Both the position numbers and the translations under genes were made by a program. From positions 134,714 to 198,713 of the forward strand of contig KB910522.1 in assembly GCA_000383115.1 (NCBI GenBank): 64,000 nt of DNA. The letters are read 5' to 3'. The stretch comes from an alpha proteobacterium SCGC AAA015-N04. GTDB taxonomy: Bacteria; Pseudomonadota; Alphaproteobacteria; Puniceispirillales; Marisalimonadaceae. Under the pieces are notes generated by a model. The model did no database searches and was not told the DNA's origin. It saw only the letters and a list, made by a program, of their open reading frames with translations. This document shows positions 17,493 to 52,705 of the stretch, piece after piece. Each line of letters opens with the position of its first letter. The first letter of the stretch is position 1.

Positions 17493-17544
17493 ATATATTA
17501 TTCCAATATATTACAGCTTTCTTATTATTATCTAAAAAAAAATA

Positions 17545-19488: not shown

Positions 19489-19547
19489 AATAATTTAGAG
19501 TACATATATAAACCACAACACTATATATAAAATTTAATGGAGTTCAT

Positions 19548-20027: not shown

Positions 20028-20039
20028 TATTTCCTTTTG

Positions 20040-21447: not shown

Positions 21448-21459
21448 TTTATTTCCAAT

Positions 21460-22419
21460 TTACTTTTCTCTTAAAATTTTTGGTAAATTAAATGTTACAT
21501 TCTCTTTTGTCACCTCATGATGTATAAGATTAACTTCAAAGTCTTTTTTAAGTTTTGAAATCAAAATTTGTACCAATGTTTCAGGAGCAGAAGCTCCAGC
21601 CGTTAATCCAATATTGGGTGACGATAAAGAGTCAAATTTGCTTAAAAATTGATCTAGAGTTTCTTCATCTGGAATAAGTTGGGCAACTTTAACACCATGA
21701 GCAAGGGCTACTTCTACTAATCTTAAAGAATTTGAAGAATTTTTTGCACCTATTACCAAAATAGTATCACATAATTTAGACATAGATTTAACAGCTTTTT
21801 GCCTATTAGTGGTAGCATAGCAAATATCTTCAGAGTTTGGCCCTTTAATTTTTGGAAATCTTGATTTTAAAATTTCCAGTATATTTTTAGTATCATCCAA
21901 GGAGAGAGTTGTTTGTGTTGCATAAGCTAGTTTTTCTTTACTCTTTACTTTTATATTCAAAGCATCTTCTTCTGTTTCAATAAGTGACACAAAATCCTTT
22001 GGTACTTGACCCATAGTTCCAGTTACTTCAGGGTGATTTCTATGTCCAACTAATAAAATATGTCTTCCAAGATTATAGTGCTTTATCGTTTCATTATGGA
22101 CTTTAGTTACAAGCGGACAAGTTGCGTCAATTGAAATCATTTGTCTTTCATTAGCTTCTTTTAAAACAGATTTTGCAACTCCGTGAGCAGAAAATATGAT
22201 TGGTCTATCAACAGGAGCTTCAATTACCTCTTCAACAAATACAGCGCCTAATTTTGCTAAGGAATTTACTACATCTTTATTATGAACAATCTCATGTCTA
22301 ACGTATACTGGTGACCCAAATTTTTTTATTGTTTCTTCAACTATTTTAACAGCTCTATCCACCCCAGCGCAGAAGCCACGAGGTGATGCTAAGTATAAAT
22401 TTATATTATTTTTCTTCAT
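21460..22419 (-). CDS. ispH: 4-hydroxy-3-methylbut-2-enyl diphosphate reductase
   Basis: 319 residues. Three cysteines that bind the iron-sulfur cluster are at 17 (PRGFCAGVDRA), 101 (DATCPLV) and 200 (EDICYATTNRQ). IspH makes IPP and DMAPP in the last step of the non-mevalonate pathway. With dxs and ispA elsewhere in the window it supplies precursors for ubiquinone, heme A and carotenoids. It is the first gene of the ispH-thrB-rnhA set and is divergent from the lipoprotein gene. Confidence 0.97.
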   Translation of the reverse strand: MKKNNINLYLASPRGFCAGVDRAVKIVEETIKKFGSPVYVRHEIVHNKDVVNSLAKLGAVFVEEVIEAPVDRPIIFSAHGVAKSVLKEANERQMISIDATCPLVTKVHNETIKHYNLGRHILLVGHRNHPEVTGTMGQVPKDFVSLIETEEDALNIKVKSKEKLAYATQTTLSLDDTKNILEILKSRFPKIKGPNSEDICYATTNRQKAVKSMSKLCDTILVIGAKNSSNSLRLVEVALAHGVKVAQLIPDEETLDQFLSKFDSLSSPNIGLTAGASAPETLVQILISKLKKDFEVNLIHHEVTKENVTFNLPKILREK

Positions 22420-22502
22420 ACTTAAATTTTGATGTATTACATTGTTTACGTCAACAAAGATTAATGATGTAATATGTTTTTTTACATTTGAGGTAATAAG
22501 TT

Positions 22503-22931
22503 ATGAATGCAAGATTTTTTTTTCCAATTTTAATTCTCCTTACTAGCTGTTCAACATTTAATAAAAAGGTCGTAGATTGTCCAAATTTATCCTCTCCTAA
22601 AAAAGCTTCAGAGATAATTGTTAATTCGAATAACAATAGACCCGTTTATCTTGGTATCAGAGGAGTTAAATTAACATGCACAATGAACAAAAAAAATATT
22701 GCGATGGAAGCCTCGATAAATATTAGAGCTATAAGAAATTTTACAAAAGACGAAGATTATGCTCCTGTTACATTATCAATAGTATCTGTAGATAAAAATA
22801 ATAAAGAATTTGATCGAGATGAGTTTTCATATTCACAATTTTTATTGTTAGGCAGTAAGATAGTTGACAGAACAACCAATATGAAGTTAAACGTGCCACT
22901 TAAAGGTGAGGTTTATTTTGGTATAAGATAA
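22503..22931 (+). CDS. Uncharacterised lipoprotein
   Basis: 142 residues. A short signal peptide ends in a lipobox LLTSC with the acylated Cys at about residue 16, so it is probably an outer- or inner-membrane-anchored periplasmic lipoprotein. The rest is a soluble domain of mixed strands with no motif I can name, ending in LNVPLKGEVYFGIR. It stands alone, divergent from ispH and one base from the convergent atpF stop. The function is unknown. Confidence 0.82.
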   Translation: MNARFFFPILILLTSCSTFNKKVVDCPNLSSPKKASEIIVNSNNNRPVYLGIRGVKLTCTMNKKNIAMEASINIRAIRNFTKDEDYAPVTLSIVSVDKNNKEFDRDEFSYSQFLLLGSKIVDRTTNMKLNVPLKGEVYFGIR

Positions 22932-22932
22932 T

Positions 22933-23418
22933 TTAATTCAGAACTGACTTTTTAATTTCTTTAGAAGCTTTTAAAATTAGGTCAGCATTTTCTTTTTTAT
23001 CTAATTTTGAAATAATAAATAGTTTTGAAGCATTTATTATAATTTTACCAGTTACAGTTTTAATATTGTTAATAGAGTCTGTCTCCATACTTAAGATTTT
23101 TTGATCAGCTTGATATTCTATTCTTTTAACAATTTCTGAAGATTTAACTTTAGCATCTTCGAGAATTTGTTTGGCACTATTTTTTGATTCTTCAATAATT
23201 TTTTCAGATTCATCAGATATAATTTTTTTAAGTTGCATAGATTTTCTTAGTTCTTCTAATGCTTCTTCTTTTAATATTTTTGCTTCATCTAAATCATTTT
23301 TTATTAATAGTGATTTATTATTTAAAATTGAAGAGATACTTTCACTAGCTTTTCTCCAAATGAGCCCAATGAAAAGGATAAAAGCAATAGCAACCCAAGC
23401 GGTTTCGTCAAAATACAT
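22933..23418 (-). CDS. atpF: ATP synthase F0 subunit b
   Basis: 161 residues: one N-terminal membrane helix (AWVAIAFILFIGLIW) followed by a long charged helix rich in Glu, Lys and Ala, the peripheral-stalk architecture. It pairs with subunit b' encoded just upstream. Last gene of the F0 operon, three bases after b'. The F1 genes are not here, as usual in alphaproteobacteria where F0 and F1 operons are separate. Confidence 0.93.
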   Translation of the reverse strand: MYFDETAWVAIAFILFIGLIWRKASESISSILNNKSLLIKNDLDEAKILKEEALEELRKSMQLKKIISDESEKIIEESKNSAKQILEDAKVKSSEIVKRIEYQADQKILSMETDSINNIKTVTGKIIINASKLFIISKLDKKENADLILKASKEIKKSVLN

Positions 23419-23421
23419 ACT

Positions 23422-24003
23422 CTATTTCTCCAATAAAACACTATCAGAAGCTGATTTTATAACTCTTTTTATGTTAACTTTATCGTTAGTTATATTAGTA
23501 AATTTATAAACTATTTTTGATGTTAGATCATCAGAACTTGCAACAATATCCAAAATTGCTTGCTTTTCAATTTTTTTTATTCTCTTTTCAGCATTTGTAA
23601 TTTTAAGTTCCATCTTTTTAGAAATTTCAATTTGAGACTTTTCAATTAAATTTCTTGATTCAGCTATTGCATCATCAATAATTTTTTGAGACTTTAATTT
23701 AACATTTTGTTGGTTATCATAAATTTCTTGCTTAATTTTTTTATTTTCTTGGTTAGATGCTTTTGCTTTAACTAGATCATTTTGTATTGTTGTTTCTCTC
23801 AGATTGAAAATTGATTTTAAATTAGGAGTAACTACATATTTCATTAAAAAATATCCAATTATCAATGAAACAATTGACCAAAACACTAATGAGGGATAAG
23901 TGTCTAAGTCTAATTGTGGCAAACCAGAGTGATTATCTTTAGAATAAGAAAATTTAGAATAAAAAATTGTTGTAGATAAAAAAATAAGTTTAAATAAAAT
24001 CAT
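23422..24003 (-). CDS. atpG: ATP synthase F0 subunit b'
   Basis: 193 residues with an N-terminal signal-like segment, then a membrane helix (VFWSIVSLIIGYFLMKYVV) and a long coiled-coil-like region. The LPQLDLDTYPSLVFW lead-in is typical of alphaproteobacterial b' subunits. With b it forms the peripheral stalk joining F0 to F1. The gene name varies between annotations (atpF2, atpG, atpX). It follows atpE after 74 bases. Confidence 0.92.
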   Translation of the reverse strand: MILFKLIFLSTTIFYSKFSYSKDNHSGLPQLDLDTYPSLVFWSIVSLIIGYFLMKYVVTPNLKSIFNLRETTIQNDLVKAKASNQENKKIKQEIYDNQQNVKLKSQKIIDDAIAESRNLIEKSQIEISKKMELKITNAEKRIKKIEKQAILDIVASSDDLTSKIVYKFTNITNDKVNIKRVIKSASDSVLLEK

Positions 24004-24077
24004 AAGATAATCTTTTATAAAAAATTTCTAAAAATAAATATACAACTAATAAATATACCACTAATAAATAATTATAT

Positions 24078-24305
24078 TTAAAAAGTAAAAAGAAGAAGTA
24101 GAGCTATAACAAGAGCAAATAAAGCAACAGCTTCTGTTAACGCAAATCCTAGAATAGCTATTCCAAAAACTTCATTTTTTGCTGCTGGATTTCTTCCAAC
24201 CGCGGTTACTAATGAGGCAAAAATATTTCCTATTCCTACACCAACACCTGCGAGTGCAATAACAGCTAAACCTGCACCTATTAATTTTGCTGCATCCATT
24301 TCCAT
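24078..24305 (-). CDS. atpE: ATP synthase F0 subunit c
   Basis: 75 residues in two membrane helices joined by the polar loop [10 protein letters not shown]. The ion-binding carboxylate is the Glu in [19 protein letters not shown]. The residues around it look like the proton-binding form; the extra polar ligands of sodium-type rings are not seen. The c ring turns as ions cross F0. It lies between atpB and b'. Confidence 0.97.
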
Positions 24306-24343
24306 TTTTTTTCCTTTCGTTAAAATATTAATTTGGTTATGAA

Positions 24344-25099
24344 TTAATGTAAGTGTATGGCATCATGAAGATACATACACGTTAAGATACTAAAAACGTA
24401 AGCTTGTAAAGCGGCAACTAAAAATTCTAAACCCGTCAAGCCAATAACAGCTAAGAGCGGAAGAACAGCTCCGAACTTTAAAAAACCACTAGCTGAACCC
24501 ATCATTATTATTAAACCTGCAAATACTTTCATCATAGTGTGACCAGCCAACATGTTTGCAAATAGTCTCACTGATAGGCTTATCGGACGAATAAAATAAG
24601 AAATAATTTCAATTGGGATAAGAAGTGGCGCTAAACCTATAGGTACACCTGATGGAAAAAAATATGTAAAAAATTTGAAACCATGTTTCAAGATTGCAAT
24701 TAAAGTAACTCCAACAAATATAATTGCCGCAAGAGTGAATGTGACTGCAATTTGAGATGTAAAGGTATAGCTATACGGTATCATACCTAGTAGATTGCCA
24801 AACAAAATGAACATAAATAAAGTAAAGATGAAAGGAAAGTAAGCTTGACTTCCTTTACCAGCATTTTCTTTAACCATATTAGCAACAAATTCGTAGGATA
24901 ATTCTACTAATGCTTGATATTTATTAGGTACTAACGATTGTTTTCTTGTTCCAAGATAAAGAAACATGGTTGATCCAATTATAGATAATATCATAAATAA
25001 TGAAGCATTGGTAAATGACACATCTATTCCAAAAAGATTGATTTCATATAGAGTTTTGATAGTAAATTGTTCAACTGGTGAATTCATTTTCTTCTTCAA
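24344..25099 (-). CDS. atpB: ATP synthase F0 subunit a
   Basis: 251 residues, several membrane helices. The essential arginine lies in [18 protein letters not shown], and the C-terminal helix carries [14 protein letters not shown], both diagnostic. It forms the ion half-channels beside the c ring. It starts three bases after the atpI stop. Confidence 0.97.
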
Positions 25100-25102
25100 T
25101 AA

Positions 25103-25405
25103 TTAATTAAAATATCCAATTTTGAGACCTTTTCCTGATACAACTCTCCATAAATTCAGGATACCTGCTACACCTCCAAGTAAGAAGAAAAGTACTAAAA
25201 ACCACGGTGTTGTTCCCAACCAAGTGTCAATCGTCCAACCAACTCCAGCTCCTATTAAGAGTCCTGCCAAAAGTTCAGTAGCTAACCTCGAAAAAACATT
25301 TACTAAAGTTTTTTCATCGATCAACTTTTTATTTTCCCCTTTTTTTCTTTCTAGGGCTTTATCAATACGTTTCGATAATAAATCTTCGTTACTTTCAGAT
25401 CTCAT
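25103..25405 (-). CDS. atpI: ATP synthase accessory protein AtpI (AtpZ/AtpI family)
   Basis: 100 residues: a charged N-terminal half, then two membrane helices ([20 protein letters not shown] and PWFLVLFFLLGGVAGILNLW). This matches the alphaproteobacterial AtpI. Relatives are thought to help assemble the c ring or handle Mg. It is the first gene of the F0 operon atpI-B-E-F'-F, downstream of smc by 86 bases on the same strand. Confidence 0.9.
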   Translation of the reverse strand: MRSESNEDLLSKRIDKALERKKGENKKLIDEKTLVNVFSRLATELLAGLLIGAGVGWTIDTWLGTTPWFLVLFFLLGGVAGILNLWRVVSGKGLKIGYFN

Positions 25406-25491
25406 AATCTTCTTTCACACATACATGATGCGAGCTTAAATTATTTTGAGCTTACAAATAAGTCAAGACATTACTTTAAAAAAATTAAAAT

Positions 25492-28400
25492 TTATAAATT
25501 TTCTCTCATTTCTATTGCTTTTTCTAAATCAACTGACACCAATTTGCTAATACCTTTATTTTCCATTGTTACACCAAATAACCTATCCATTTTGGACATT
25601 GTGTGCCTATGGTGTGTTACAACCATAAAGTAAGTTTTTGTTTTTGATTCAATATTATCAAGTAGGTCACAGAATCTTGAAACGTTTGTATCATCAAGTG
25701 ATGCATCAACTTCGTCCAATATACATATAGGTGCAGGATTACACAGAAAGACTGAAAAGATTATAGCTATAGAAGTTAATGCTTGTTCGCCACCTGACAA
25801 TAAAGACAATAATTGCATCTTTTTTCCTGGTGGACTAGCCAGCACCTCTAAGCTAGCTTTAAGTGGATCTTCATTACCAATAAGTTTTAGTTCAGCATTT
25901 CCCCCGCCAAATAGTTTTTGAAATAGATTTTTAAAATTATCATTGACCTTTTCAAAACTATTTATTAATCTTTCCCTACCTTCCCTATTAAGTTCAAAAA
26001 TTCCACTTCTTAGTTTATTAATTGCTTGTTCTAAATCTACTATTTCATTTGATAAATTCTCAACTTTATTTTTCATTTCATTCATTTCATCCTCAGCTCT
26101 CAGATTAACATTTCCAAGAGCTTCTCTTTCATTTAATAAACGTTGAACTGTTTTTTCTAAAGTTTCAACTGATTTGGAGAATATTTCATTTTCATCAACA
26201 TTTATAAATTTAATTAATTCGTTTGAATTGATTCTCAACTTTTCAAAAATTCTATCTTCAATATTTTTGATTTTTGTAATTGATAAATTTGATAAAGCAT
26301 CAATCCTAATCATCTCTTCCCGAAGTAATCCAACTTTTTTTTCTGCCTCTCTTTCATTTTTTTCATGTTCAATTAAATTTGTTTCGGCTAATGCGAGGTT
26401 GTCAGCTGCAAGATTTCTCTTCTCAAAAGCCTCGTTTAATTTTGAATTTAAAATTTTTTCTTGTTCTTCAAAGTCATTTGGAAGTTTTGAGAGTTCGATT
26501 TTTTCATTTTGAGATAGCTTTAATCTTTCTTTTAACAAATTTAACCTTGAGTTTGCCTCCTTTTCTCTTATTTTCCAATTTTCTATTTGATCATTTATCT
26601 GAGTAAGATTTTGAGATTGAAAATTTTCTAAATTTTTTGTTTGTTGTTCAGATGCAATTGCGTCAGTAAGTTGATTTCTATACTGATCAGCAATATTTCT
26701 TATTTTTAATTCTTCAGCAAGTAATGATGGGAGATTAGTTATATCAACTAATTCTCTCTCTAAAATAACAAGTTCATTTTCAGATACTTTTTTGTTATTC
26801 TGAAGATCTGAAATTAAAATACTCGAAGATTGAAGTTTTGCTTCGATCTTTGAGTTTTCTATTTCTAGAAGATTTATTTCTTCATAAAGATTATCTATTT
26901 CCATTTGTAACTCAGATAAAATGGTTTTATTTTCTTCAATTTCTAAGATAGTTTTATTTAATTTCTTAAAATTTTTAGATTGGTTTTTTTCAACTAATGG
27001 TATTTCTTTTTGCAAGAGCTTAATTTTAGTAATTTGCTCTAGTCTTTCAGAATATTTGTTTCTAACACCTAAAGGTTGAACAAATCCGTCCCATCTCCAT
27101 AAACCGCCATCAATAGTTGTAAGAGCTTGACCAAAAGTGAGTTTTTTTTGTAATGATAGAGCTATTTCTTCGTTTTTGACTAGTCCAATACCAACCAATG
27201 CTCTATCAAAAATAGATAATTTTTTGGATTCAGAAATTAATGGTGTAGTACCTTCAGGCAACTTAGAACTTACCGAAGTGGTAAAATCATATCTCCAATA
27301 AGATGCATCTTTTTTTGCTTTATTTGATGAAATAATAGGAGCTAAAAGTGATTCGCCTAATACTGAGCCTATCGCTTTTTGTAGCTTTGTGTCATAAGTT
27401 ATTGATTTTTCGAAACTATTTTTTATTAAAAAGTTATTTCCTAATAAAGACAAAAGTGAATTTAATTCTGCATTTAATTGATTGAGCTCTAAGCTAATAT
27501 TATTCTTTTGATTTGATAAATCTAATTTTAATATCTCAATTTTATTTAATAAATTTTTTTTAACTTCAAAAATTTTCTTTTTACCTAAAAGAATATTTTT
27601 TTTATCTTCTATTTTTTTTTTGTTAGTTTGAAGAATTTTTTTGTCTTCATTTTTATATATTTCAGATATCTGTTTTTTAGAAGTTTCAATTTTTTCTTTT
27701 AGAGTTAATACTTTATTTTCTAATTTTTTCTTACCTGTATTTAAAGATAAAATTTTTGATGTTATTGAAGAGAGATTTTCTTCAGCAGCTTTTGACTGTT
27801 TTTTTAATTTTATAACTAAATTACTAGATTTTTTAAATTTTGAAGAATTCTTTTTATTTTCCTCGTGAAGTTTTTTCTTATCTAAATCTAAATTTAAGAG
27901 TGTTTTACTAGCATCCTCTTTTATTCTGAACTCTCTATCTATATCATTTTTAATTTGATTTATCTGATTTGTGGTATTTTCCAAGTTTTTCTTTATGGAG
28001 GATTTTTCTTCTTCGATTCTTATTTTATCTATGTTTAATTTTTGTAGAATAATAGCTTTTTCTTTTTCTATTTTTTTTAAATCAGGTATTGTATTTAAAA
28101 TTTTAATTTTTAATTCAGTATATTTTGATGCTTCAATCTGTGACGCGTTAACATTGTCTTCAGAAGTTATTAATTGTATTTTTAGAGCGTCGGCCTCTTT
28201 TTCTGCACTTTTTAATAAATTTAAAAATAAAGATGCTTCTGCTTTTCTAATTCTGTCTCCTATAGATCTATATCTTGCTGCTTTTCTACCTTGTTTTTCT
28301 AATTCAGATAGCTGTTCTTTATAAGTCTGTTCTATATCAAACAACCTATTTAAATTTTCACTTGCTCCGCTTAACTTTAATTCAGCTTCGTGTCTTCTAT

Positions 28401-28923
28401 TATGAAGACCTTTTATATTAGCAGCTTCTTCTAATATTACTCTTCTATCTTCTGCACTTGCATCGATAATTTGAGCAATTCTACCTTGACTAACAATACC
28501 CGTTGATCGTGCACCTGTTCCAGTATCAGCAAAAATAAGTTGGACATCTCTTGCTCTTACTTGTTTATTATTTATTCTGTATGTAGATCCTTTTTCTCTT
28601 TCGATTGTGCGTGTGATCTCAATTTCATCAAACTGATTAAAGTTTGCGGGAGCTTTTTTTTCAGAATTATCAAGTTTAATAGTTACTTCAGCAAAATTTC
28701 TTGCAGGTCTATCATTAGTACCTGAAAAAATAACATCATCCATGCCATCACCTCTTACTAATTTAGCCGAGGTTTCTCCCATAACCCATTTAATGGCCTC
28801 TACAATGTTTGATTTACCGCAGCCATTAGGTCCAACTATTCCTGTTAAGCCTTCTTTTATTTGTATTTCTGTTGGATCCAAAAAAGACTTAAAACCAGAA
28901 ATTCTTAGAGATATGAGCTTCAT
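25492..28923 (-). CDS. smc: Chromosome segregation protein SMC
   Basis: 1143 residues, slightly shorter than most SMC proteins. Walker A GPNGCGKS is at residues 31-38. Two long coiled coils rich in Lys, Glu and Asn flank a hinge near residues 500-640. The C-terminal head has the signature LLSGGEQALTS and Walker B ICILDEVDA. SMC dimers organise and help segregate the chromosome, working with ScpA and ScpB (not in the window). The order mutY / DUF721-dsbA-smc is standard for alphaproteobacteria. Confidence 0.97.
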   Translation of the reverse strand: MKLISLRISGFKSFLDPTEIQIKEGLTGIVGPNGCGKSNIVEAIKWVMGETSAKLVRGDGMDDVIFSGTNDRPARNFAEVTIKLDNSEKKAPANFNQFDEIEITRTIEREKGSTYRINNKQVRARDVQLIFADTGTGARSTGIVSQGRIAQIIDASAEDRRVILEEAANIKGLHNRRHEAELKLSGASENLNRLFDIEQTYKEQLSELEKQGRKAARYRSIGDRIRKAEASLFLNLLKSAEKEADALKIQLITSEDNVNASQIEASKYTELKIKILNTIPDLKKIEKEKAIILQKLNIDKIRIEEEKSSIKKNLENTTNQINQIKNDIDREFRIKEDASKTLLNLDLDKKKLHEENKKNSSKFKKSSNLVIKLKKQSKAAEENLSSITSKILSLNTGKKKLENKVLTLKEKIETSKKQISEIYKNEDKKILQTNKKKIEDKKNILLGKKKIFEVKKNLLNKIEILKLDLSNQKNNISLELNQLNAELNSLLSLLGNNFLIKNSFEKSITYDTKLQKAIGSVLGESLLAPIISSNKAKKDASYWRYDFTTSVSSKLPEGTTPLISESKKLSIFDRALVGIGLVKNEEIALSLQKKLTFGQALTTIDGGLWRWDGFVQPLGVRNKYSERLEQITKIKLLQKEIPLVEKNQSKNFKKLNKTILEIEENKTILSELQMEIDNLYEEINLLEIENSKIEAKLQSSSILISDLQNNKKVSENELVILERELVDITNLPSLLAEELKIRNIADQYRNQLTDAIASEQQTKNLENFQSQNLTQINDQIENWKIREKEANSRLNLLKERLKLSQNEKIELSKLPNDFEEQEKILNSKLNEAFEKRNLAADNLALAETNLIEHEKNEREAEKKVGLLREEMIRIDALSNLSITKIKNIEDRIFEKLRINSNELIKFINVDENEIFSKSVETLEKTVQRLLNEREALGNVNLRAEDEMNEMKNKVENLSNEIVDLEQAINKLRSGIFELNREGRERLINSFEKVNDNFKNLFQKLFGGGNAELKLIGNEDPLKASLEVLASPPGKKMQLLSLLSGGEQALTSIAIIFSVFLCNPAPICILDEVDASLDDTNVSRFCDLLDNIESKTKTYFMVVTHHRHTMSKMDRLFGVTMENKGISKLVSVDLEKAIEMRENL

Positions 28924-28942
28924 AAATTAATCTCTTATAAAA

Positions 28943-29578
28943 TTATGAATTTTTAATTTTTAAAAATTTTAAAAGCTCGCTTTCAAATTCTCTGAATGTT
29001 AAAGCTCCTGAAATTTTATGTTTATCATTTACAATAAAAGTTGGTGTGGATGTTATTTTAAATTTTTTTGATTCCATCTCCATTTTATTTATGATCTCTT
29101 GCATTAAAGGAAAATTTTGAGTTATTTTTTTAAACTGACTTGACGAAATTCCAAATGATTTTGCAATTGATGCTAATTCTTCAAGTGGCTCTTTTGAATA
29201 AGCCCATATTTTTTGTTTTCTTAACAAAGTTTTAACTGCTCCCAGATAACCTTCGTCTGTTGGAATAGTTCTTACTAATGCTGAAGCAATTACCGCTAAT
29301 CTATCTAAAGGATAGTCAATTAACTCTAACTGTACTTGTCCACTATCAATATATTTTTTTTTAAATTTTGGAAGTGTTTTAATATGAAAGCTTGCGCAAT
29401 GACCACATGTTAAGGAAAAGTATTCCTTGATTTTAATTGGTGCATCTTTAGAACCCATGTACTTTGGTTTCATTCTATTATTTAAATTTGATTTGTTTGG
29501 AAATGCAGTGGATGGGTATATGATTAAAGCTATAATGCTAAGTAAAATTTCTCTTCTGTTAAATTTAAATCTTTTCAA
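28943..29578 (-). CDS. DsbA-family periplasmic thiol protein
   Basis: 211 residues with an N-terminal signal sequence (a NRREILLSIIALIIY stretch, with paired arginines reminiscent of a Tat signal but no full consensus). The active site is CGHC in SLTCGHCASFH, followed by a DsbA-type helical insert and the cis-Pro region STPTFIVNDK. Such proteins oxidise or isomerise disulfides in exported proteins. It lies between DUF721 and smc, 19 bases before smc. Confidence 0.92.
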   Translation of the reverse strand: MKRFKFNRREILLSIIALIIYPSTAFPNKSNLNNRMKPKYMGSKDAPIKIKEYFSLTCGHCASFHIKTLPKFKKKYIDSGQVQLELIDYPLDRLAVIASALVRTIPTDEGYLGAVKTLLRKQKIWAYSKEPLEELASIAKSFGISSSQFKKITQNFPLMQEIINKMEMESKKFKITSTPTFIVNDKHKISGALTFREFESELLKFLKIKNS

Positions 29579-29654
29579 AATACTTTCCTTAATTAATTCT
29601 ATCTTTAATTATTGATAACATATATTACAAAAGAAAATAGAAGAATTTATTAAT

Positions 29655-30098
29655 TCAATTTTTTTTTTGGATAGAAATTTCTAATTTTTGCATTGCAAAC
29701 TTAAGATCTCCGTCAGGCAATACATTTGAGATTAAATTCTCTTTTTTTTTTGGAATATTTGATAGGGTTTTATCTGTTTCAATTTTTGCATTAAAGCCGA
29801 TATCTGTTTGAATTAATTTTATTTTATCTATTGCTTTGAAGCCAAATCTTGAATTAATCTGATTTAAAATAAATGGTAAGGCTTGTTGTACGATTGGACC
29901 AAAACTATTTTGGACATTCAATATCAGTTTCCCTTTATTTTTTGTTCGTTTGTCAAAAATGATTTTTTTTGGTTTTGTTATTGTAGCATATTCCTTTGCT
30001 ATATTTTTCCAATTAAGAAGGATATGAGCTTCAATAGCTCCTAGTTTACCAATATATTGGTCTAAAATTTTTTCTGTAATTTTTAACAAATGTTTCAT
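29655..30098 (-). CDS. DUF721 / DciA-like protein
   Basis: 147 residues. The N-terminal half has the DUF721 (DciA) pattern, including ILLNWKNIAKEYATITKPKK followed by a strand with LILNVQNSFGPIVQQ. DciA family members load or assist the replicative helicase in many bacteria that lack DnaC. The residue pattern and the position divergent from mutY and upstream of dsbA-smc both support the call; helicase loading by this copy is inferred. Confidence 0.82.
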   Translation of the reverse strand: MKHLLKITEKILDQYIGKLGAIEAHILLNWKNIAKEYATITKPKKIIFDKRTKNKGKLILNVQNSFGPIVQQALPFILNQINSRFGFKAIDKIKLIQTDIGFNAKIETDKTLSNIPKKKENLISNVLPDGDLKFAMQKLEISIQKKN

Positions 30099-30155
30099 TT
30101 TAAACTATAAATAACTGAATTTAAAATTAAATAAATATATTATATAAATAAATAT

Positions 30156-31271
30156 ATGACAAAGAAAAACGAAGTAAATTATAAAATATTCTCAAATAAA
30201 TTATTAGATTGGTATGATGTTAATAAAAGAGATTTACCCTGGAGGGTTAAGGCTAACCAAAATATTAATCCCTATCATATTTTGATATCTGAATTTATGT
30301 TACAACAGACTTTAGTTGTTACAGTTATTCCTTACTTTTTAAGATTTATAAATAAATGGAAAACAATAGATGATTTAGCAAAAGCAAATTTTGAAGAAGT
30401 TGCTATTAGTTGGTCTGGATTAGGATATTACAGAAGAGCTAAAAACCTTCATGAAACAGCAAAAATCATTTCTAGAGACTATTGTGGTGATATACCTAGG
30501 AAAAAGGAAATATTATTATCTTTCCCAGGAATAGGTGACTATACTGCATCAGCTATAATGGCAATAGCTTTTAATATTCAATCAAATGTTGTAGATGGAA
30601 ATATAGAGAGAATATTTTCTCGGTTATATAAGATTGAGAAGCCTTTGGAAAAATCTAAAAAGTTTATAAAAATGGTCTCAGAAAAACATTTGCCAGGCTC
30701 AAGACACGGAGATTATGCCCAAGCATTGATGGATTTGGGATCACTAATATGTGTTCCCAACAAACCAAAATGTGGAATATGTCCTATGTTATTTTATTGC
30801 AAAGTAGGCAATAAAAAAATTGCAAGCCTTTATCCAAAAAGATTACCAAAAAAAATAAAAGATCAAAGATACGGAATTTTTTTTATTTTAATAAATCAAA
30901 ACAAAGAAATTCTTTTTTATACTAATAAAAAAGATGGATTGTTTGTAAATATGGATCTTCTACCTTCTTTAGGTTGGTATCAAAGCAAATTTTTTTTAGA
31001 TCATAATCCAGATATGATTACAGAAGAAATTGCCTTGTTTAACTTTAAATGGAAAATTTTCCAAAAAAAATTATTTCACGTATTTTCTCATTTCAAATTA
31101 AGCTGTACCATTGCTTATTATCAACTTGATAATAATTCATGTAAAAATTTTTTATTAGATGAAAAAACTTTTAGGTTTGTAAACAAAAATGATTTTAACA
31201 AATTAGCTTTGCCAACTTTAATGAAAAAAATCATAAAAATAATAGAAGACGAAAATTTAATTAATTATTAA
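30156..31271 (+). CDS. mutY: Adenine DNA glycosylase
   Basis: 371 residues. Catalytic Glu46 (ISEFMLQQT), the helix-hairpin-helix FPGIGDYTASA, catalytic Asp147 (VVDGNIER) and the iron-sulfur loop with Cys199, 206, 209 and 215 (C-x6-C-x2-C-x5-C) are all visible. A NUDIX-like C-terminal domain recognising 8-oxoG follows from about residue 230. It removes A mispaired with 8-oxoguanine. The 3' end overlaps the convergent purH by four bases. Confidence 0.97.
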   Translation: MTKKNEVNYKIFSNKLLDWYDVNKRDLPWRVKANQNINPYHILISEFMLQQTLVVTVIPYFLRFINKWKTIDDLAKANFEEVAISWSGLGYYRRAKNLHETAKIISRDYCGDIPRKKEILLSFPGIGDYTASAIMAIAFNIQSNVVDGNIERIFSRLYKIEKPLEKSKKFIKMVSEKHLPGSRHGDYAQALMDLGSLICVPNKPKCGICPMLFYCKVGNKKIASLYPKRLPKKIKDQRYGIFFILINQNKEILFYTNKKDGLFVNMDLLPSLGWYQSKFFLDHNPDMITEEIALFNFKWKIFQKKLFHVFSHFKLSCTIAYYQLDNNSCKNFLLDEKTFRFVNKNDFNKLALPTLMKKIIKIIEDENLINY

Positions 31272-32878
31272 TGTTTGAAATGTCTAATAGAAGTAAATAC
31301 CATTACTAAGTCTCGTTCATTGGCTGCATTAATTACTTCTTGATCTCTTATAGATCCACCAGGTTGGATTATTGCAGTTACACCAGCTTCAGCTGCAGAT
31401 ATAAGGCTATCTGGAAAAGGAAAAAAAGCATCACTTGCAACTACACTTCCTATAGTCGGCAACTCAATTAAGTTAGATAGTTTAGCAGAAATTTTTGCTT
31501 TTTCTTTTGCTATGTTTGTAGAATCTATTCTGCTCATTTGGCCAGCACCAATTCCGACAGTTTTAAGATCTTTTGCATAAACAATAGCATTTGATTTCGT
31601 ATGCTTAACAACTTTCCATGCAAAAAGAAGATCTTCAATTTGCTTTTTTGTTGGTAATTTCTTGGTCACAATTTCAAGATCTTCTTTTTTAATAATATTA
31701 TCATCATGAGTTTGAACTAGCATACCTCCTCTTATGGACTTCATTAACAAACCTGTATCTGTTTTACTAAGCACTTTACCTGTTTGGATTAATCTTACAT
31801 TTGGTTTATTTTTAAAAACAATTTGAGCTTCAAGAGAAATTTTTGGTGCAATGATCACCTCTAAAAAAAGAGATTTCATTTTATTAGCTAATTTTTGATC
31901 TAGTTCTCTATTAATTGCTACAATTCCTCCAAAAGAACTTATTGGGTCGGTTTGAAGAGCGTTTTTCCAAGCCAAATTTATATTAGTATTCTCTGCAACA
32001 CCACATGGATTAGCGTGTTTTATTATTGCTACTGCTGGCATTTCAAATTCACGTATTAATTCATATGCAGAATTGACATCATTAATATTATTGTAAGACA
32101 ATTCTTTACCTTGAATTTTTTTAAAGATGTCATTTCTATTTTTGATATTTGAAAATTCATAAAAAGCAGCCCTCTGATGAGGATTTTCACCATATCTCAT
32201 TGGTAAAGATTTGTTTAAATTTATAGAAATTTTTTGTGGTAATTCAAGATTTCCAATATTTTTATTTTTAAACCAACTTGAAATTGAAAAGTCATATTCA
32301 TTTGTTAAATTAAAAGCTTTTTCTGCTAAGTATTTTCTAAATTTATAAGTTGTACATGTATTCTCATTTATTTCATTAATCAATTGCGGGTAATCCTCAA
32401 TCTCAGTCACTACAGTAACAAATTCAAAATTTTTTGCACCTGCTCTAATCATTGCAGGTCCGCCAATATCAATATTTTCGATTATCTTGGATACATCATT
32501 AGTATTTTTTGAAACTTGGTCAAATTCATAAAGGTTAATTATTAGTAGATCAATATTTTGAATTTTATTTTTTTTTATCTCGTTTATATGATCGCTATCA
32601 TTTCTCCTCGATAATATACCTCCATAAATATTTGGATGTAGAGTTTTAACTCTGCCATTTAAAATTTCAGGAAAATTAGTATAATCGGCAATTTGTCTTA
32701 CTGGAATTAGTTTTTCTTCTAGAAATTTTGCAGTACCACCCGTTGACAATATCTCTACATTATTTTCTACCAGGACTTTTGCAATTCTTTCAATATCTTT
32801 TTTTTTGGTAACAGATATTAAAGCTCTCTTTATTTTGATCTTATCAGTAAAAACTTTATTTTTATTTGTATTTTTCAT
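31268..32878 (-). CDS. purH: Bifunctional AICAR transformylase / IMP cyclohydrolase
   Basis: 536 residues, full length. The N-terminal cyclohydrolase part contains STGGTAKFLEE and GRVKTLHPNIYGG; the C-terminal transformylase part has AIIKHANPCGVAE and ASDAFFPFPD. It carries out the last two steps of IMP synthesis. Convergent with mutY, and downstream of the heparinase-like gene by 58 bases on the same strand, a common alphaproteobacterial arrangement. Confidence 0.98.
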   Translation of the reverse strand: MKNTNKNKVFTDKIKIKRALISVTKKKDIERIAKVLVENNVEILSTGGTAKFLEEKLIPVRQIADYTNFPEILNGRVKTLHPNIYGGILSRRNDSDHINEIKKNKIQNIDLLIINLYEFDQVSKNTNDVSKIIENIDIGGPAMIRAGAKNFEFVTVVTEIEDYPQLINEINENTCTTYKFRKYLAEKAFNLTNEYDFSISSWFKNKNIGNLELPQKISINLNKSLPMRYGENPHQRAAFYEFSNIKNRNDIFKKIQGKELSYNNINDVNSAYELIREFEMPAVAIIKHANPCGVAENTNINLAWKNALQTDPISSFGGIVAINRELDQKLANKMKSLFLEVIIAPKISLEAQIVFKNKPNVRLIQTGKVLSKTDTGLLMKSIRGGMLVQTHDDNIIKKEDLEIVTKKLPTKKQIEDLLFAWKVVKHTKSNAIVYAKDLKTVGIGAGQMSRIDSTNIAKEKAKISAKLSNLIELPTIGSVVASDAFFPFPDSLISAAEAGVTAIIQPGGSIRDQEVINAANERDLVMVFTSIRHFKH

Positions 32879-32936
32879 TTTTTAATAGCCATATTAAATT
32901 AACTAATTTGAAATATTTAATAAAATATTATTTGGA

Positions 32937-34487
32937 TTAAAATTTACTTTGTAACTGAAACGTCCAATTACATGAGATTTTTTTGTAAGCTCTGATTTTA
33001 TCTAATTTAACATTTATTACTATTTGTTTGCATGGAAAATTCCCATTATTAGTAAACATAATTGAATCTTGTAATAAGATGTTTTGAGTATTTGAACTCA
33101 TTTTCCATACAAAACCTTTTATATGATTTAACAATACAGAGCCGTTACGCGTTTTAATAAGATCAATTTGTGGATGTATATGAAAGCGAATATTAGCACA
33201 TTTTGGAATAGTTCCTATATTGTCAACATTTATTATCTCATCTTTACCTCGTAATTCTTCTTTCTTATTAGAAATATAGATTTGTCTTCTATGATGGACA
33301 CCAAAGAGAGTTTCGTAGCCAGAGTGTGTTATGTCAAGTAAAGTTCCATTATTTGTTCTACCATATTTTAAATTAAAAACTCTTGTTTTTCTTCTACCAA
33401 ATAAATCTATGTTGTTTCGGTCATCAATGTTTAGAGTAGAATGTGCTGCAGAAGATGCTAAGGAATTTTTAATATGTTGTAGCTTTGATCCTTTTAACTC
33501 GCCTAAATTGGAAATTATTTTATTTTTTTGGTAAAAAAACTCAAATGCAAACAAACTAGACTTGCTTGCATTTGTAATTTGATTTGTTCCAATATCTACT
33601 AAAGTTGTTGTGCTCAAGCCCATTATTCTTGAAAAACCAGTTTCCTTAGCTAAACTAAAAATTCTATTTTTGTAACCAATTCTATTTAAAGTTTGTTTAA
33701 TAATTTCTTTAGAAGCTATTGAGCCACCAAAAAACCAAGCAAAGTATCCATTAGGCATTTGAAAGCTTCTTAAAAATTCCCCCATTTTAATTACTTGTGC
33801 ATGTAAATTTGTTGCATCAATATTTTTTATAACTGCTAGGACTGATCTAATTTCTATCAAATGCCTAAGAAGATTTAATAAAAAAACTGGGTTTCTAGAT
33901 TTGTGACCACCATCAGGATTTGTTAAAAAAATAATTCCGTCATTAATTATAACTAACAAATTAGAGATATTATCTATTTCATCATATAAAATTGATTTGG
34001 CTATAATTATACCCTTAACAATTATTATTTTTTCAAGATGATTGTGAGAGTCTAAAAGTTTTAGTTCAAGATATTTTGTTTGCAACGCGATTGAACGTAG
34101 TATTTTTTTTTGAAACTCTAATTTACCGCTATCTACAAACCAAGAATAGTTAAAGCTCCAACATGATATTCGAGCAGACATAGTCTCTGAGTTAAATTCT
34201 TTAGATTGCAAATTGTGATCTTCATCAATCCAATCATTAACCAAAGATCTAGCAATTGACCTTGCTTTAATACTTCCTTCAGCCTTTAAATCTCGTAAAA
34301 AGTTGAATTTATTAAAATTTAGTTCTTTTTTAGGATTTAATTTACCAGTTACAATTTTTTTTCCTATGTCTGAAGAACCTAACCAGTTGTCAGTAATTTT
34401 TCTAACTGTGCCATTAAATTCTGGGACATAAATTTTTTGTTTTAGAAAATGATTATTTGTGATCCAGTTTAATACCTTTAGAATCAA
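32937..34487 (-). CDS. Heparinase II/III family protein
   Basis: 516 residues. The C-terminal heparinase II/III beta domain is marked by LASSAAHSTLNIDDRNN and HSGYETLFGVHHRRQIYIS; the N-terminal half is helical. Characterised relatives are polysaccharide lyases, but this alphaproteobacterial form sits at a fixed place between rsmB and purH and its substrate is unknown. A cell-envelope role is possible. It starts one base after the rsmB stop on the same strand. Confidence 0.88.
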   Translation of the reverse strand: MILKVLNWITNNHFLKQKIYVPEFNGTVRKITDNWLGSSDIGKKIVTGKLNPKKELNFNKFNFLRDLKAEGSIKARSIARSLVNDWIDEDHNLQSKEFNSETMSARISCWSFNYSWFVDSGKLEFQKKILRSIALQTKYLELKLLDSHNHLEKIIIVKGIIIAKSILYDEIDNISNLLVIINDGIIFLTNPDGGHKSRNPVFLLNLLRHLIEIRSVLAVIKNIDATNLHAQVIKMGEFLRSFQMPNGYFAWFFGGSIASKEIIKQTLNRIGYKNRIFSLAKETGFSRIMGLSTTTLVDIGTNQITNASKSSLFAFEFFYQKNKIISNLGELKGSKLQHIKNSLASSAAHSTLNIDDRNNIDLFGRRKTRVFNLKYGRTNNGTLLDITHSGYETLFGVHHRRQIYISNKKEELRGKDEIINVDNIGTIPKCANIRFHIHPQIDLIKTRNGSVLLNHIKGFVWKMSSNTQNILLQDSIMFTNNGNFPCKQIVINVKLDKIRAYKKISCNWTFQLQSKF

Positions 34488-34488
34488 A

Positions 34489-35418
34489 TTAATTTTCCTT
34501 TTTTAATAACGCAATGAAGAAACCATCAGTCCCATTGATAACATTTTCAGAACTAAAATTAAAATAATTTGGAAGAATTCGAATAAATCCTTCTTTTGTA
34601 ATAGCTTTTTTTATATGAGGATAATCATTTAAACAAAAACGACTTATTGCAAATTCTTTATTGTTATTTAAAAATTCTTTAATTCTATTTTCTCCTTCAT
34701 CTTTTTGAAGTGAGCAGGTTATATACATTATAAAACCATTTTTATTTAGAATTTTAGCTGAATTTTCTAAAATTTTATTCTGAGTTAAGATTAAATTATC
34801 TAAATTATTTGGGATAGCCCTTAAAAATATATCTGGGTTTTTTCTAATTGTGCCTGTTGCAGAGCATGGTGCATCTATAATAATAACATCAGCTTTTATT
34901 ACTGGATTAAAATTTTCTGCGTTTACATTAATCAATTCAGGATTAAAGTTCAAACGATCCATATTCTTTTTGAACACATTTGATCTTGATATACTTTTTT
35001 CAACACACAGTAGCTTAAGATTATTATCTAAAAGTTGAGCAGTTTTACCACCAGGCGCACAACATAAGTCAAAAGCTATAAGTTCATGTATAGACTTTGA
35101 AAAGCTTTTTTTTATTTTTGATATTAATATATTACAAGCAATTTGAGATGCAGCATCTTGTACCCACCATACTCCGTCGTTAAATCTTGGTAAACTCTCA
35201 ATATTTCCTTTATATGAACATCTTATGACATTAGGCAATATTTCTTCACCACATATTTCTATTTTTATTTTTTCTTTTTCTTTTTTGGTTAATTTCTTCG
35301 AAATTACTATATCAAGTGGAGGGGGGTCCATTGCTAATTTAACAATATCATTTGCATTTTTTTTTCCCATACAAGGAAGTCCAGCTAATAAAAAGCCATT
35401 TTGGTAAATTAGATGCAT
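34489..35418 (-). CDS. rsmB: rsmB, C-terminal methyltransferase part (frameshifted from N-terminal part)
   Basis: 309-codon frame with the Rossmann methyltransferase of the RsmB/NOP2 family: ALDLCCAPGGKTAQL-type motif (seen as FDLCCAPGGKTAQL), IDAPCSATGTIRKNPD with the catalytic Cys, and YITCSLQKDEGENRI with the second Cys. RsmB makes m5C967 in 16S rRNA. True homology to RsmB begins only near MGKKNANDIVK; the first 16 residues from the ATG at 35418 are out-of-frame sequence of the NusB-like part. A run of nine A (35357-35365, written as T on the plus strand) lies at the junction; removing one A would fuse both parts into one protein of normal length. Confidence 0.88.
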   Translation of the reverse strand: MHLIYQNGFLLAGLPCMGKKNANDIVKLAMDPPPLDIVISKKLTKKEKEKIKIEICGEEILPNVIRCSYKGNIESLPRFNDGVWWVQDAASQIACNILISKIKKSFSKSIHELIAFDLCCAPGGKTAQLLDNNLKLLCVEKSISRSNVFKKNMDRLNFNPELINVNAENFNPVIKADVIIIDAPCSATGTIRKNPDIFLRAIPNNLDNLILTQNKILENSAKILNKNGFIMYITCSLQKDEGENRIKEFLNNNKEFAISRFCLNDYPHIKKAITKEGFIRILPNYFNFSSENVINGTDGFFIALLKKEN

Positions 35419-35866
35419 CGTTTATAATAATATCAGAAAATTCTTTTTTATTTTGGATAATTTTTCTAAGAATTGCATTTACTAACTTAGATTGCTTTTC
35501 ATTAATAAATAATTTTGCTTGGGACACAGCTTCATTTATAACTGCATAAGGTGCCATTTCTAGCCAGATTAATTGAACTGTTGCAATCAACAGAATACTA
35601 TTTAAGTATCTATTCCTTGGATTTAAACCGTATTTCGCGTATTTAGTATAAATATTTTGCGCTTGTTTATGTCTCCTCATAGATGAGTTTATTAAGTGAT
35701 ATATAAAGGATTTGTCCCTTTTATCTAATTTATTAAAATCAAAAGAGTTATTTATGACTTTTTCAAAATTTTTGTTTTTATAAAAAATTAAAATCCAAAT
35801 TTCTAAAGCAATTATTCTTGCGTTTTTTGGTAATTTTTGAAATTTAAGTGACTTCTTTTCAAACAA
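35348..35866 (-). CDS. rsmB: rsmB, N-terminal NusB-like part (frameshifted)
   Basis: 172-codon frame with the all-helical NusB-like RNA-binding domain that precedes the methyltransferase in RsmB (LINSSMRRHKQ, VQLIWLEMAPYAVINEAV, KLVNAILRKI). It ends LPKWLFISWTSLYGKKKCK and then stops; in RsmB the segment PKWL...YG continues directly into the PPLD-containing linker, which here is in the other frame at 34489-35418. The two parts total about 450 codons, the family norm. Whether the gene is broken, read by slippage on the A9 run, or a sequencing error cannot be told from one sequence. Confidence 0.88.
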   Translation of the reverse strand: MFEKKSLKFQKLPKNARIIALEIWILIFYKNKNFEKVINNSFDFNKLDKRDKSFIYHLINSSMRRHKQAQNIYTKYAKYGLNPRNRYLNSILLIATVQLIWLEMAPYAVINEAVSQAKLFINEKQSKLVNAILRKIIQNKKEFSDIIINDASNLPKWLFISWTSLYGKKKCK

Positions 35867-40685: not shown

Positions 40686-41180
40686 ATGGTTTCACCTAAG
40701 TATGTATTAAAGTTCTTATATTTATTTACTTTTATTTTGCTATCTTCACAAAGTTTTTCTGAAACAATTACTTTTAAAGGTTTAGTTTTATCAGATTTTT
40801 GGATAAAAAAAGTAATTGCTAATAATAATATAACTGTAGGTTATATTAAAATTGAAAATAAAAATGAGAAGAATGAACGTTTGATTTCTGTGGTATCAGA
40901 TTTTTCAAAAAGGATAGAAATTCATGATATGTATATTAAAAACAACGTAATGATAATGAAACATTTAGAACAAGGAGTGTTAATTAAATCTAAATCACAA
41001 TTAGATTTTAAACCTGGAAGCCTTCATATTATGTTTATTGATTTAACAAAGTCTCTAAAAAAAACAAAATTACAAAAAGTTAAATTTAATTTTAAAAATG
41101 CAGGGTCAATAGTTGTTAATATGCCGATTATGGATAAAAGAAAAAAATCAAATGAGAAGAAAAAACACCATCATCATTAA
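40686..41180 (+). CDS. Periplasmic copper chaperone, PCu(A)C family
   Basis: 164 residues: signal peptide to about residue 25 (ends near SQSFSE), then the PCu(A)C domain with copper ligands His80 and Met82 (EIHDMYI), Met91, and His114/Met116 (SLHIMFID). These fit the family metal motif. The C-terminus is basic and ends in four histidines, an extra metal-binding tail seen in some members. Such proteins carry Cu(I) to the CuA site of subunit II, so it likely serves the oxidase at 8.4-13.5 kb. A lone gene, divergent from pgi. Confidence 0.92.
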   Translation: MVSPKYVLKFLYLFTFILLSSQSFSETITFKGLVLSDFWIKKVIANNNITVGYIKIENKNEKNERLISVVSDFSKRIEIHDMYIKNNVMIMKHLEQGVLIKSKSQLDFKPGSLHIMFIDLTKSLKKTKLQKVKFNFKNAGSIVVNMPIMDKRKKSNEKKKHHHH

Positions 41181-41270
41181 CATTTATTATTTCACAATTT
41201 TATTTCTTTTAAAATAACTTTTAAGAAAATTTTTCTAATTATCAGTACTTATAAAAAAATAAAAAAAAAT

Positions 41271-41335
41271 ATTTCCTTTTTTATTTCCTTTTAGAGAATT
41301 TCATTCTAAATGCTTAACTTTTTAATGAGGAATAT
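41271..41335 (+). promoter_or_regulatory. Possible SAM-II/SAM-V-like riboswitch leader of the metY remnant
   Basis: The leader has a hairpin AGAAT-TTC-ATTCT (41295-41307) followed directly by AAATGCTTAAC and a Shine-Dalgarno sequence GAGGAA (41327-41332). Two TTCCT copies upstream (41273-41277 and 41285-41289) are complementary to AGGAA and could mask it. metY genes of SAR11-like bacteria are known to carry SAM-V riboswitches, whose compact pseudoknots occlude the ribosome site. The match to that class is from memory and imperfect, so this is only a candidate. Confidence 0.3.
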
Positions 41336-41339
41336 ATAA

Positions 41340-41794
41340 ATGAGTAATTCTATAAATCCAGAAACCCTTAGTCTTCATGCCGGATGGAGAGCAGATGAAA
41401 CAACAGGTTCAGTTGCGGTGCCAATTCATCAAACCACAAATCAGTGGATCATGTAATTTACCCTGAGTTACAAACAGGAATTTCTAAAGAAAACGCCGTT
41501 AAGTATTTAAATAAAGGATTTGGAGGTCTAGTTGGATTTGAATTGAAAGGTGGTGCAGAAGCAGGTAAAAAGTTTATAGATAACTTAAAATTATTTTACC
41601 ACGTGGCAAACATTGGTGACTTAAGAAGCCTTGCCATACATCCAGCAACTACAACACATAGTCAATTATCATCTGAAGATAAATTAAAATCTGGTGTATC
41701 AGATTCATATGTAAGATTATCAGTTGGTATTGAACATGTAGATGATATTTTAGACGACTTAGCTGAGGCCTTAGAAAAATCTCAAGAAAAGTAA
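41340..41794 (+). pseudogene. metY: Internally deleted O-acetylhomoserine sulfhydrylase (metY remnant)
   Basis: An ATG at 41340 with a good ribosome site opens a 38-codon frame, SINPETLSLHAGWRADETTG then SVAVPIHQTTNQ, which is the N-terminus of MetY-type PLP enzymes, and stops at 41454-41456. From about 41444, in another frame, about 116 codons encode the C-terminal MetY end (FELKGGAEAGKKFIDNLKLF, LAIHPATTTHSQLSSE, VRLSVGIEHVDDILDDL). About 280 middle residues including the PLP lysine are missing and the frame changes at the join. No functional enzyme can result. It is either a real deletion pseudogene or an assembly join. Confidence 0.85.
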
Positions 41795-41904: not shown

Positions 41905-42909
41905 TTGATATTTGAGGAAAAGTTTTCTGTAGCTCCAATGATGGAATGGACAGATAGGCATTGTCGATATTTTCATAGACTCTTATCTGGTTCAGCAGTT
42001 TTATATACTGAAATGATTTCTGCTGATGCCTTAATTTTTGGGCCACGACACAAATTGTTAGCATTTAATAATGAAGAATTGCCATGTGTTCTTCAATTAG
42101 GTGGTAATGATCCTAAGAAATTATCTTTAGCAGCTAAGTTTGGTCAAAGTTATGGATACTCAAAAATAAATTTAAATATTGGATGTCCTTCAAATCGAGT
42201 CCAGAATGGATCATTTGGAGCATGCCTTATGAAAACACCTAAAATTGTCTCAGAATGTGTGAGGGCGATGCAAGATGTTAGTCAATTACCTATTACAATT
42301 AAATGTAGGATTGGTGTTGATGATATGGATGAAGTAAAAGGTTTAGATAACTTTATTGATCAAGTGTCCGCTGAAGGAGTAAAGTTATTCGCTATTCATG
42401 CTAGAAAAGCTCTGTTGAATGGATTAAGTCCAAAGCAAAATAGAGAAATCCCTCCCTTAGATTATTCTAGGGTTGGAGCATTAAAAAAAAGAAGGCCAGA
42501 TTTAAAAATTATTATTAATGGTGGAATTAAGTCAATACAAGAGGGCCAAAAATTAGTTAAACAATATTTACTTGATGGTTTTATGATTGGAAGAGAAGCA
42601 TATAAAAATCCATATATTTTGTCCTCTGTAGATAAAATAGTCCTAAATCAAAATGAAAAAATTAAGACTAGATACCAAATAGCCATGAAAATGGCTGACT
42701 ATATTGATGAATTTGTGAAAAATGATGAAGGTAATGTTCACTCTGTAATTAGACATATTTTAGGTTTGTATAACTCTTTACCAGGTGCTAAAGAGTGGAG
42801 ACGTGAATTAAGCGAAAATTCAAGATTTTCAAAAAATGGTGATTTGTTAAGATTTGCAACAGACAATATAGAAGAGTTTATTCACAGTAAGAGTTTAATT
42901 TTAGCGTAG
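41905..42909 (+). CDS. dusA: tRNA-dihydrouridine synthase A
   Basis: 334 residues, FMN-dependent TIM-barrel enzyme. VAPMMEWTDRHCRYFHR at the start and NIGCPSNRVQNGSFGACLM (with the catalytic Cys) identify DusA rather than DusB/C. It reduces uridines 20/20a in the tRNA D-loop. The start is TTG at 41905; the family N-terminus leaves no room for a later start. It is followed nine bases later by a YciB-like gene. Confidence 0.95.
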   Translation: MIFEEKFSVAPMMEWTDRHCRYFHRLLSGSAVLYTEMISADALIFGPRHKLLAFNNEELPCVLQLGGNDPKKLSLAAKFGQSYGYSKINLNIGCPSNRVQNGSFGACLMKTPKIVSECVRAMQDVSQLPITIKCRIGVDDMDEVKGLDNFIDQVSAEGVKLFAIHARKALLNGLSPKQNREIPPLDYSRVGALKKRRPDLKIIINGGIKSIQEGQKLVKQYLLDGFMIGREAYKNPYILSSVDKIVLNQNEKIKTRYQIAMKMADYIDEFVKNDEGNVHSVIRHILGLYNSLPGAKEWRRELSENSRFSKNGDLLRFATDNIEEFIHSKSLILA

Positions 42910-51755: not shown

Positions 51756-52613
51756 ATGGGTGAACTTATGACAATTAAAAATATTGGATTTATTGGCCTC
51801 GGTGCAATGGGTTCTGTAATGGCGCCACTTATTGTAAAATCAGGATTTAATGTTCTTGGATATGACATAAAAACTAAAATAGATAAATCATCTGGTGTGA
51901 AGCAAGTTGAAGATATAAATGAATTTAGTGGTCTTGATGTAATAATTTTCATGTTACCCAATGGAAGAGTTGTTTCTGAAATGGCCATTAAATTATTAGA
52001 AAAGAATCTTAAGTCAGTGTTTATAGATATGTCTTCAAGTGATCCTAGAGAAACCCAAGAGTTAGGTAAGAAATTAAAAAATAAAGATTTAAAATTTTTA
52101 GACGCACCTGTTTCTGGAGGTGTTGCAAGAGCAATAACTGGTGATTTAATGATTATGGCAGGGGGAGACGAGAAGATTTTAGAAGAAGTAAGTGATCTAT
52201 TATCTATATTGGGAAAAGTTCAATTTGCTGGTCCATTAGGTTCTGGTCATGCCATAAAAGCTCTAAATAATTATGTGTCTGCAGCTGGTTTAATATCAAG
52301 TTTTGAAGCATTAGCAACGGCTCGTTCTTTTGGAATTGAACCAGAAAACTTTTTAAAAATTATAAATGGAGCTACGGGTAAAAATAATACTACTGAAGTC
52401 AAACTGGATAAATTTGTAATTACCGAAAAATTTAACTCAGGATTTGCACTAGATTTAATGGTTAAAGATGTCACGATTGCGAATAGTTTAATTAAAGACT
52501 TATCTTCTAACAAACCACTTTCAAATGATGTTTTATCTCATCTTTCAGAGTCACTTAAAGTTTTAGGTGGTAATCCAGATCACACAGAAGTTTATAAAAC
52601 AATTAAGAAATAA
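51756..52613 (+). CDS. NAD(P)-dependent beta-hydroxyacid dehydrogenase (HIBADH / tartronate semialdehyde reductase family)
   Basis: 285 residues. The Rossmann loop GFIGLGAMGSVMAP, substrate motif DAPVSGGVARAITGDLMIM and catalytic Lys in GHAIKALNNYVSAAG are intact. Members act on 3-hydroxyisobutyrate, tartronate semialdehyde and related acids. An ATG at 51768 is an alternative start. Coupled to the CoA transferase gene; the neighbouring ThDP enzyme is convergent, so a shared pathway is possible but unproven. Confidence 0.92.
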   Translation: MGELMTIKNIGFIGLGAMGSVMAPLIVKSGFNVLGYDIKTKIDKSSGVKQVEDINEFSGLDVIIFMLPNGRVVSEMAIKLLEKNLKSVFIDMSSSDPRETQELGKKLKNKDLKFLDAPVSGGVARAITGDLMIMAGGDEKILEEVSDLLSILGKVQFAGPLGSGHAIKALNNYVSAAGLISSFEALATARSFGIEPENFLKIINGATGKNNTTEVKLDKFVITEKFNSGFALDLMVKDVTIANSLIKDLSSNKPLSNDVLSHLSESLKVLGGNPDHTEVYKTIKK

Positions 52614-52659
52614 TATTTAAAGCACAAAATTTATCTGAAAACAATTTTCTTGTAGTTAT

Positions 52660-52705
52660 GGTTTTGAACAAATAACAAAACTTAAGTTTTTAGTTTGTTT
52701 GCAGT
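52660..52705. terminator. Possible bidirectional terminator between convergent genes
   Basis: A 14-base palindrome AAAACTTAAGTTTT (52677-52690) is centred in an imperfect longer inverted repeat (CAAATAAC on the left, TTAGTTTG on the right), in the gap between two convergent genes. The stem is almost all A/T and so weak. It could stop transcription from both sides, but this is tentative. Confidence 0.3.

Follow-up and report, generated by a model that had tools for sequence, protein, structure and literature searches.

A metY remnant in a SAR116 genome, probably left by a deletion between short direct repeats

In the genome of a marine SAR116 bacterium (Puniceispirillales), metY lacks 847 bp and survives as its two ends, out of frame with each other and joined at the one remaining copy of a 9-bp direct repeat. 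This is probably a recent, real and quite ordinary pseudogene, formed by a short-repeat deletion in a gene that seems dispensable in the genus: other genomes have a broken metY or none at that site, and this genome encodes a second, complete MetY. The DNA analyzed (the window, to which all positions refer unless a contig or locus is named) is 64 kb of contig C2 from an assembly of 1.71 Mb in 74 contigs, 66.8% complete; it was compared with other SAR116 genomes (Puniceispirillales). The fragment lies 36 kb from the end of the 212-kb contig, so this is no contig-edge effect.

The remnant and its junction

The 5′ remnant (41340–41438, + strand) retains codons 1–33 of metY. Its ATG at 41340 stands just downstream of a ribosome-binding-like GAGGAA, and its frame translates as MSNSINPETLSLHAGWRADETTGSVAVPIHQTTNQWIM, a product of 38 residues that ends at the first stop, a TAA at 41454–41456 (+). 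The 3′ remnant (41441–41794, +) holds about 117 codons and a stop and is out of frame relative to the head; the GTG at 41444 of the tail ORF (116 codons) lies upstream of and overlaps the stop region. Against TIGR01326 (O-acetylhomoserine sulfhydrylase), the head matches the N-terminal part and the tail the C-terminal part, aligning with positions 308–418 of the 418 in the profile; they score 23.3 and 141 bits, respectively, below the curated cut-off of 495.1 bits, and the intact ortholog in one relative (L016) scores 602.7 bits. Descent from metY is also evident from location: head and tail match a metY that lies between the same neighbors in relatives. The upstream neighbor (40686–41180, +) is an ORF of 164 aa with a run of His at its end, resembling by eye a copper chaperone of the PCu(A)C type; downstream is an intact homolog of tRNA-dihydrouridine synthase (dus; 41905–42909, +), likewise named by eye, which serves as the anchor of the survey described below.

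What happened to the middle of the gene? In all 11 loci measured in relatives, a distance of 847 bp separates the left and right sites that are joined in the window; these loci represent 10 genomes, since the whole of L016 recurs unchanged within L036 and the two count as one record. The missing segment amounts to 282 codons plus one nucleotide (847 = 3 × 282 + 1), hence the frame shift; about 280 residues are gone, among them K207 of the SLTK motif of intact orthologs, which we take to be the PLP-binding lysine. A sequence-only reading of the window had described metY as reduced to its two ends, with the PLP lysine lost and the frame shifted, and the comparison with relatives bears this out. 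The junction reads CCAATTCATCAAACCACAAATCAGTGGATCATGT, and the sole copy left of the repeat, AAACCACAA, occupies the deletion site (41431–41439, +). The join thus lies slightly to the left of 41444–41456, where that reading had placed it; the interval it named is about where the first stop falls. In five of the ten relatives AAACCACAA is present, exact, at both ends of the segment missing here (L008, L013, L014, L015, and L016, which equals L036), and in the other five (L009, L010, L011, L017, L018) one repeat copy carries a single mismatch.

When deletions of 100 bp or more are considered in metY of five relatives, homology of at least nine bases is found at 7–9 of the ~527,000 possible junctions. 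With such junctions so few, the repeat at the deletion ends is hardly accidental. Chance is excluded by this count together with the tail, which shares 95–99% identity with the 11 nearest open copies (contig ends truncate three of these). Replication slippage between short direct repeats is a standard route of bacterial gene loss; slippage, or another short-homology deletion, would have removed the 847-bp stretch between the two copies of the repeat, as the form of the junction suggests. The frame shift together with the loss of the presumed PLP lysine would leave the product inactive.

The event appears to be recent, as had been supposed from the well-preserved ends: the head (codons 1–33) has no private change relative to nine relatives, and the tail, set against twelve, has three synonymous and one non-synonymous. 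In the intact dus gene, private changes number two synonymous to one non-synonymous (twelve rows) or three to one (eight rows); the ratio in the tail resembles these, and thus no relaxed selection is visible. A private C-to-T change at 41622 (+) replaces Ser with Leu in the GD-S-RSL stretch of the tail, at a column that holds A in 79, S in 25, T in 4, V in 2 and Leu in none of 110 homologs; at a column so constrained, the substitution may be a weak hint of lost constraint.

Deletion in the cell or artifact

Could the gap have arisen in the test tube? Supposing that the DNA came from a single cell by way of MDA, a displaced 3′ end might have annealed at the 9-bp repeat and skipped 847 bases, and the skipped molecule might then have dominated the assembly, the cell itself having had an intact metY. 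The genome is indeed fragmentary (74 contigs, 66.8% complete), the head and the tail are hardly degraded, and the deletion is known from one assembly: its exact junction did not turn up in the 39 other genomes of the genus, a set that includes some without the locus. A second gene, 6 kb away, is disrupted at a homopolymer relative to five relatives and may be a sign of sequence errors in this region. In a published set of MDA chimeras, homologies of 2–21 nt likewise occur at the joins (PMC1855051), so the repeat by itself is compatible with an artifact. Yet in that set, inversions account for 406 of 475 chimeras, and direct-orientation joins less than 10 kb apart for just 11 of 475 (PMC1855051). 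Furthermore, when the window is aligned with five relatives, no internal gap of at least 20 bases is seen apart from two breaks, one at metY and one at 52.6 kb (the latter seen in G032, G009 and G014, as the other two relatives end before 52 kb). An artifact, being random, would also need to strike a gene that relatives lose too, the same site being broken (G026) or empty (G024, G001, G034) in other genomes of the genus. With the window nearly collinear, deletion-type chimeras rare in that MDA set and the same gene broken or absent elsewhere in the genus, an amplification or assembly artifact is unlikely, and the deletion was probably present in the DNA of the cell.

The sequence-only reading had also proposed an assembly join between strains, which is rejected: in 1-kb steps, identity to the five relatives is 0.93–0.98 to the left and to the right of the join, with no shift there, and the break runs from repeat to repeat. 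A single dip, to 0.80–0.92, in the 100-bp step at 41200, falls in the spacer 5′ of the ATG, away from the join. That the 38-residue head or the 116-codon tail still functions, for example as a partner of the second MetY, is highly improbable: the tail ORF is open and 95–99% identical to its closest open copies, but such conservation is expected anyway after a recent deletion, the deletion took about 280 residues and with them the presumed PLP lysine, the private amino-acid substitution (Ser to Leu) falls at a tightly conserved column, and the junction is found in none of the 39 other genomes.

Several other features of the window deserve mention in their own right. At 52613–52700, the window is without ~1.7–1.8 kb that in G032, G009 and G014 holds two extra ORFs of 236–312 aa, one of which resembles, by eye, an inverse-autotransporter-type barrel. 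At 34495–35866 (− strand), a 458-aa ORF of the five relatives, by eye similar to an RsmB-type rRNA methyltransferase, is split by a frameshift near 35360–35367, where the window has one base more than G032 at a T run (A on the coding strand); this may be an error, slippage or a pseudogene. From ~15000 to 34000, gene order is kept but the five relatives are all less similar (identity of about 0.65–0.79), with flanks at up to 0.90 on the left and 0.99 on the right; perhaps this block was replaced by recombination. Two ORFs flagged for a stop in the window (1612–2724 and 4522–5283) were set aside, as they differ only at their very ends.

Loss of metY elsewhere in the genus

Of 37 genomes of the genus, the survey scored the 24 in which dus was found, among them that of the window; the other 13 were left unscored. 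Beside dus, 15 genomes have a full-length metY and four an open copy cut by a contig end; one (G000, the window's genome) has the deletion, one (G026) a gene with a frameshift and stops, and three have none. The G026 copy (contig C14, 29312–30570; L023, L131) is an independent pseudogene. In the three genomes without the gene (G024, G001, G034) the upstream gene is followed directly by dus, and no other tail of the lost-MetY type was found in them; the loss in G024, as compared with G014, also ends in an overlap, T/A-rich and eight bases long. The same methionine-assimilation gene is thus deleted, frameshifted or absent at one site in five of 24 genomes of a marine genus, and no report of metY loss in SAR116 was found among the open-licence papers listed.

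On a tree of dus, the metY states need four changes (three to four in the 5–95% range of bootstrap trees), a count that does not distinguish gain from loss, and just two of these changes are forced by well-supported branches; the metY labels cluster no more than random reassignment would give, 121 of 500 shuffles being as low. Since metY adjoins dus also in deeper branches (G027–G030), the absences are read as losses, and they would accordingly represent genes that were once present rather than genes never gained. There seem to have been about four separate losses in the genus, a modest case for recurrent loss. Differing in form and accompanied by retention of a second full-length MetY, they suggest that metY is dispensable in this SAR116 genus, and it is the second MetY or imported methionine that would make it so.

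A second MetY

If the gene is so readily lost, what could take its place? The sequence-only reading had weighed the consequences for a cell in which this was the only copy, and here it did not hold: a search of the genome for another metY or metX turned up a complete MetY paralog on contig C24, and MetX gave no match. The C24 protein has 431 aa and the lysine motif SLTK, scores above two NCBIfam cut-offs (NF006004, 640.1 vs. 636; TIGR01326, 559.1 vs. 495.1) and is 45% identical to the intact ortholog of the broken gene; among solved structures, the one closest to it in sequence is 8sf5, that of an O-acetylhomoserine/O-acetylserine sulfhydrylase. A full-length second MetY is present in all five genomes that lack an intact metY.

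Whether this paralog makes methionine is another matter. Its gene lies in a cluster (L174, 2222–12482; L175, L176) whose order and ORF lengths are nearly equal in G014 and G024; in G000 the families are an acyl-CoA ligase, MetY, an alpha/beta hydrolase, another acyl-CoA ligase and a DHDPS-family protein, followed by a 174-aa protein that matches nothing in Pfam and, encoded on the opposite strand, a rhodanese protein. The conserved cluster also has a TPP enzyme. Given the acyl-CoA ligases, the alpha/beta hydrolase and the DHDPS-family protein, the role of the C24 MetY may differ from that of the lost one: the setting looks catabolic, perhaps an organosulfur pathway, and synthesis of homocysteine or methionine by this enzyme in the cell is not certain. 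A cystathionine beta-lyase is encoded on contig C3 of the same genome.

The sulfur and methionine background

A search of 25 genomes of the genus, four with a completeness of 90% or more, detected no sulfite reductase (NIR_SIR); it left out twelve further genomes (G025–G036), and six of 16 other genomes of the order gave a match. Two SAR116 strains, HIMB100 and Ca. Puniceispirillum marinum, are described as having incomplete sulfate reduction (PMC3368413). Because no sulfite reductase was found in the 25 genomes searched, dependence on reduced sulfur is plausible as a background, with or without loss of metY. The sequence-only reading had tied the broken gene to this dependence; the trait itself remains credible and does not come from the metY deletion.

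For MetX, the partner enzyme, nothing scored above the cut-off in the 37 genomes of the genus or in 14 control genomes; long matches occur in three of the 37 (G013, G033 and, partial, G001), in addition to short weak ones. MetA (PF04204) is present in 28 of the 37 and was not found in the window's incomplete genome; homoserine activation in the genus seems to proceed by MetA. The B12-binding domain of MetH (PF02965) was detected in none of 61 genomes and in seven of 14 controls, a result that fits the mtgC homologs (part of a split methionine synthase) reported from SAR116 and other marine bacteria (PMC12478193). The homocysteine methyltransferase domain PF02574 is found in nine of ten genomes examined, the window's own included; G034 is without it. 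A pangenome study describes methionine synthesis in SAR116 as patchy and allows that genome incompleteness may be the reason (PMC12262181).

A tentative picture, and one on which we would not insist, is that of a genus seemingly without sulfite reductase in which metY is lost repeatedly and lineages either use the second MetY to fix sulfur or need imported methionine. If this is true, sister cells would differ in their ability to turn sulfide or methanethiol into methionine. The survey in itself allows the dependence of SAR116 cells on methionine and reduced sulfur to be tested one strain at a time. As an event, the deletion is ordinary gene decay; its modest interest lies mainly in drawing attention to variation in methionine assimilation within SAR116.

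Comparison with known systems

The remnant matches what a deletion between short direct repeats leaves behind: one 9-bp copy stays, the intervening 847 bp are missing, and nothing in the window departs from that mechanism. Among known enzymes, the C24 protein corresponds to a PRK08134-type O-acetylhomoserine aminocarboxypropyltransferase; it is full length and belongs to the same TIGR01326 subfamily as the broken metY, from which it differs in sequence (45% identity) and in its conserved-cluster setting.

Another comparison is with MetY, an O-acetylhomoserine sulfhydrylase, of SAR11 (Ca. Pelagibacter ubique). A riboswitch 5′ of metY, as in SAR11, was considered and rejected: no Rfam family reached the gathering score at 16 SAR116 loci, ten of which hold metY of the lost type, and 41150–41500 yielded three weak matches, all below the gathering score and on the other strand. 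SAR11 MetY belongs to the same family as the broken gene; among the 80 loci listed, those of Pelagibacteraceae are 62–67% identical to the tail. SAR11 also lacks assimilatory sulfate reduction, its MetY (or MetC) is said to form methionine from methanethiol and O-acetylhomoserine, and a SAM riboswitch precedes its metY (PMC5069961), whereas the copy in the window is broken.
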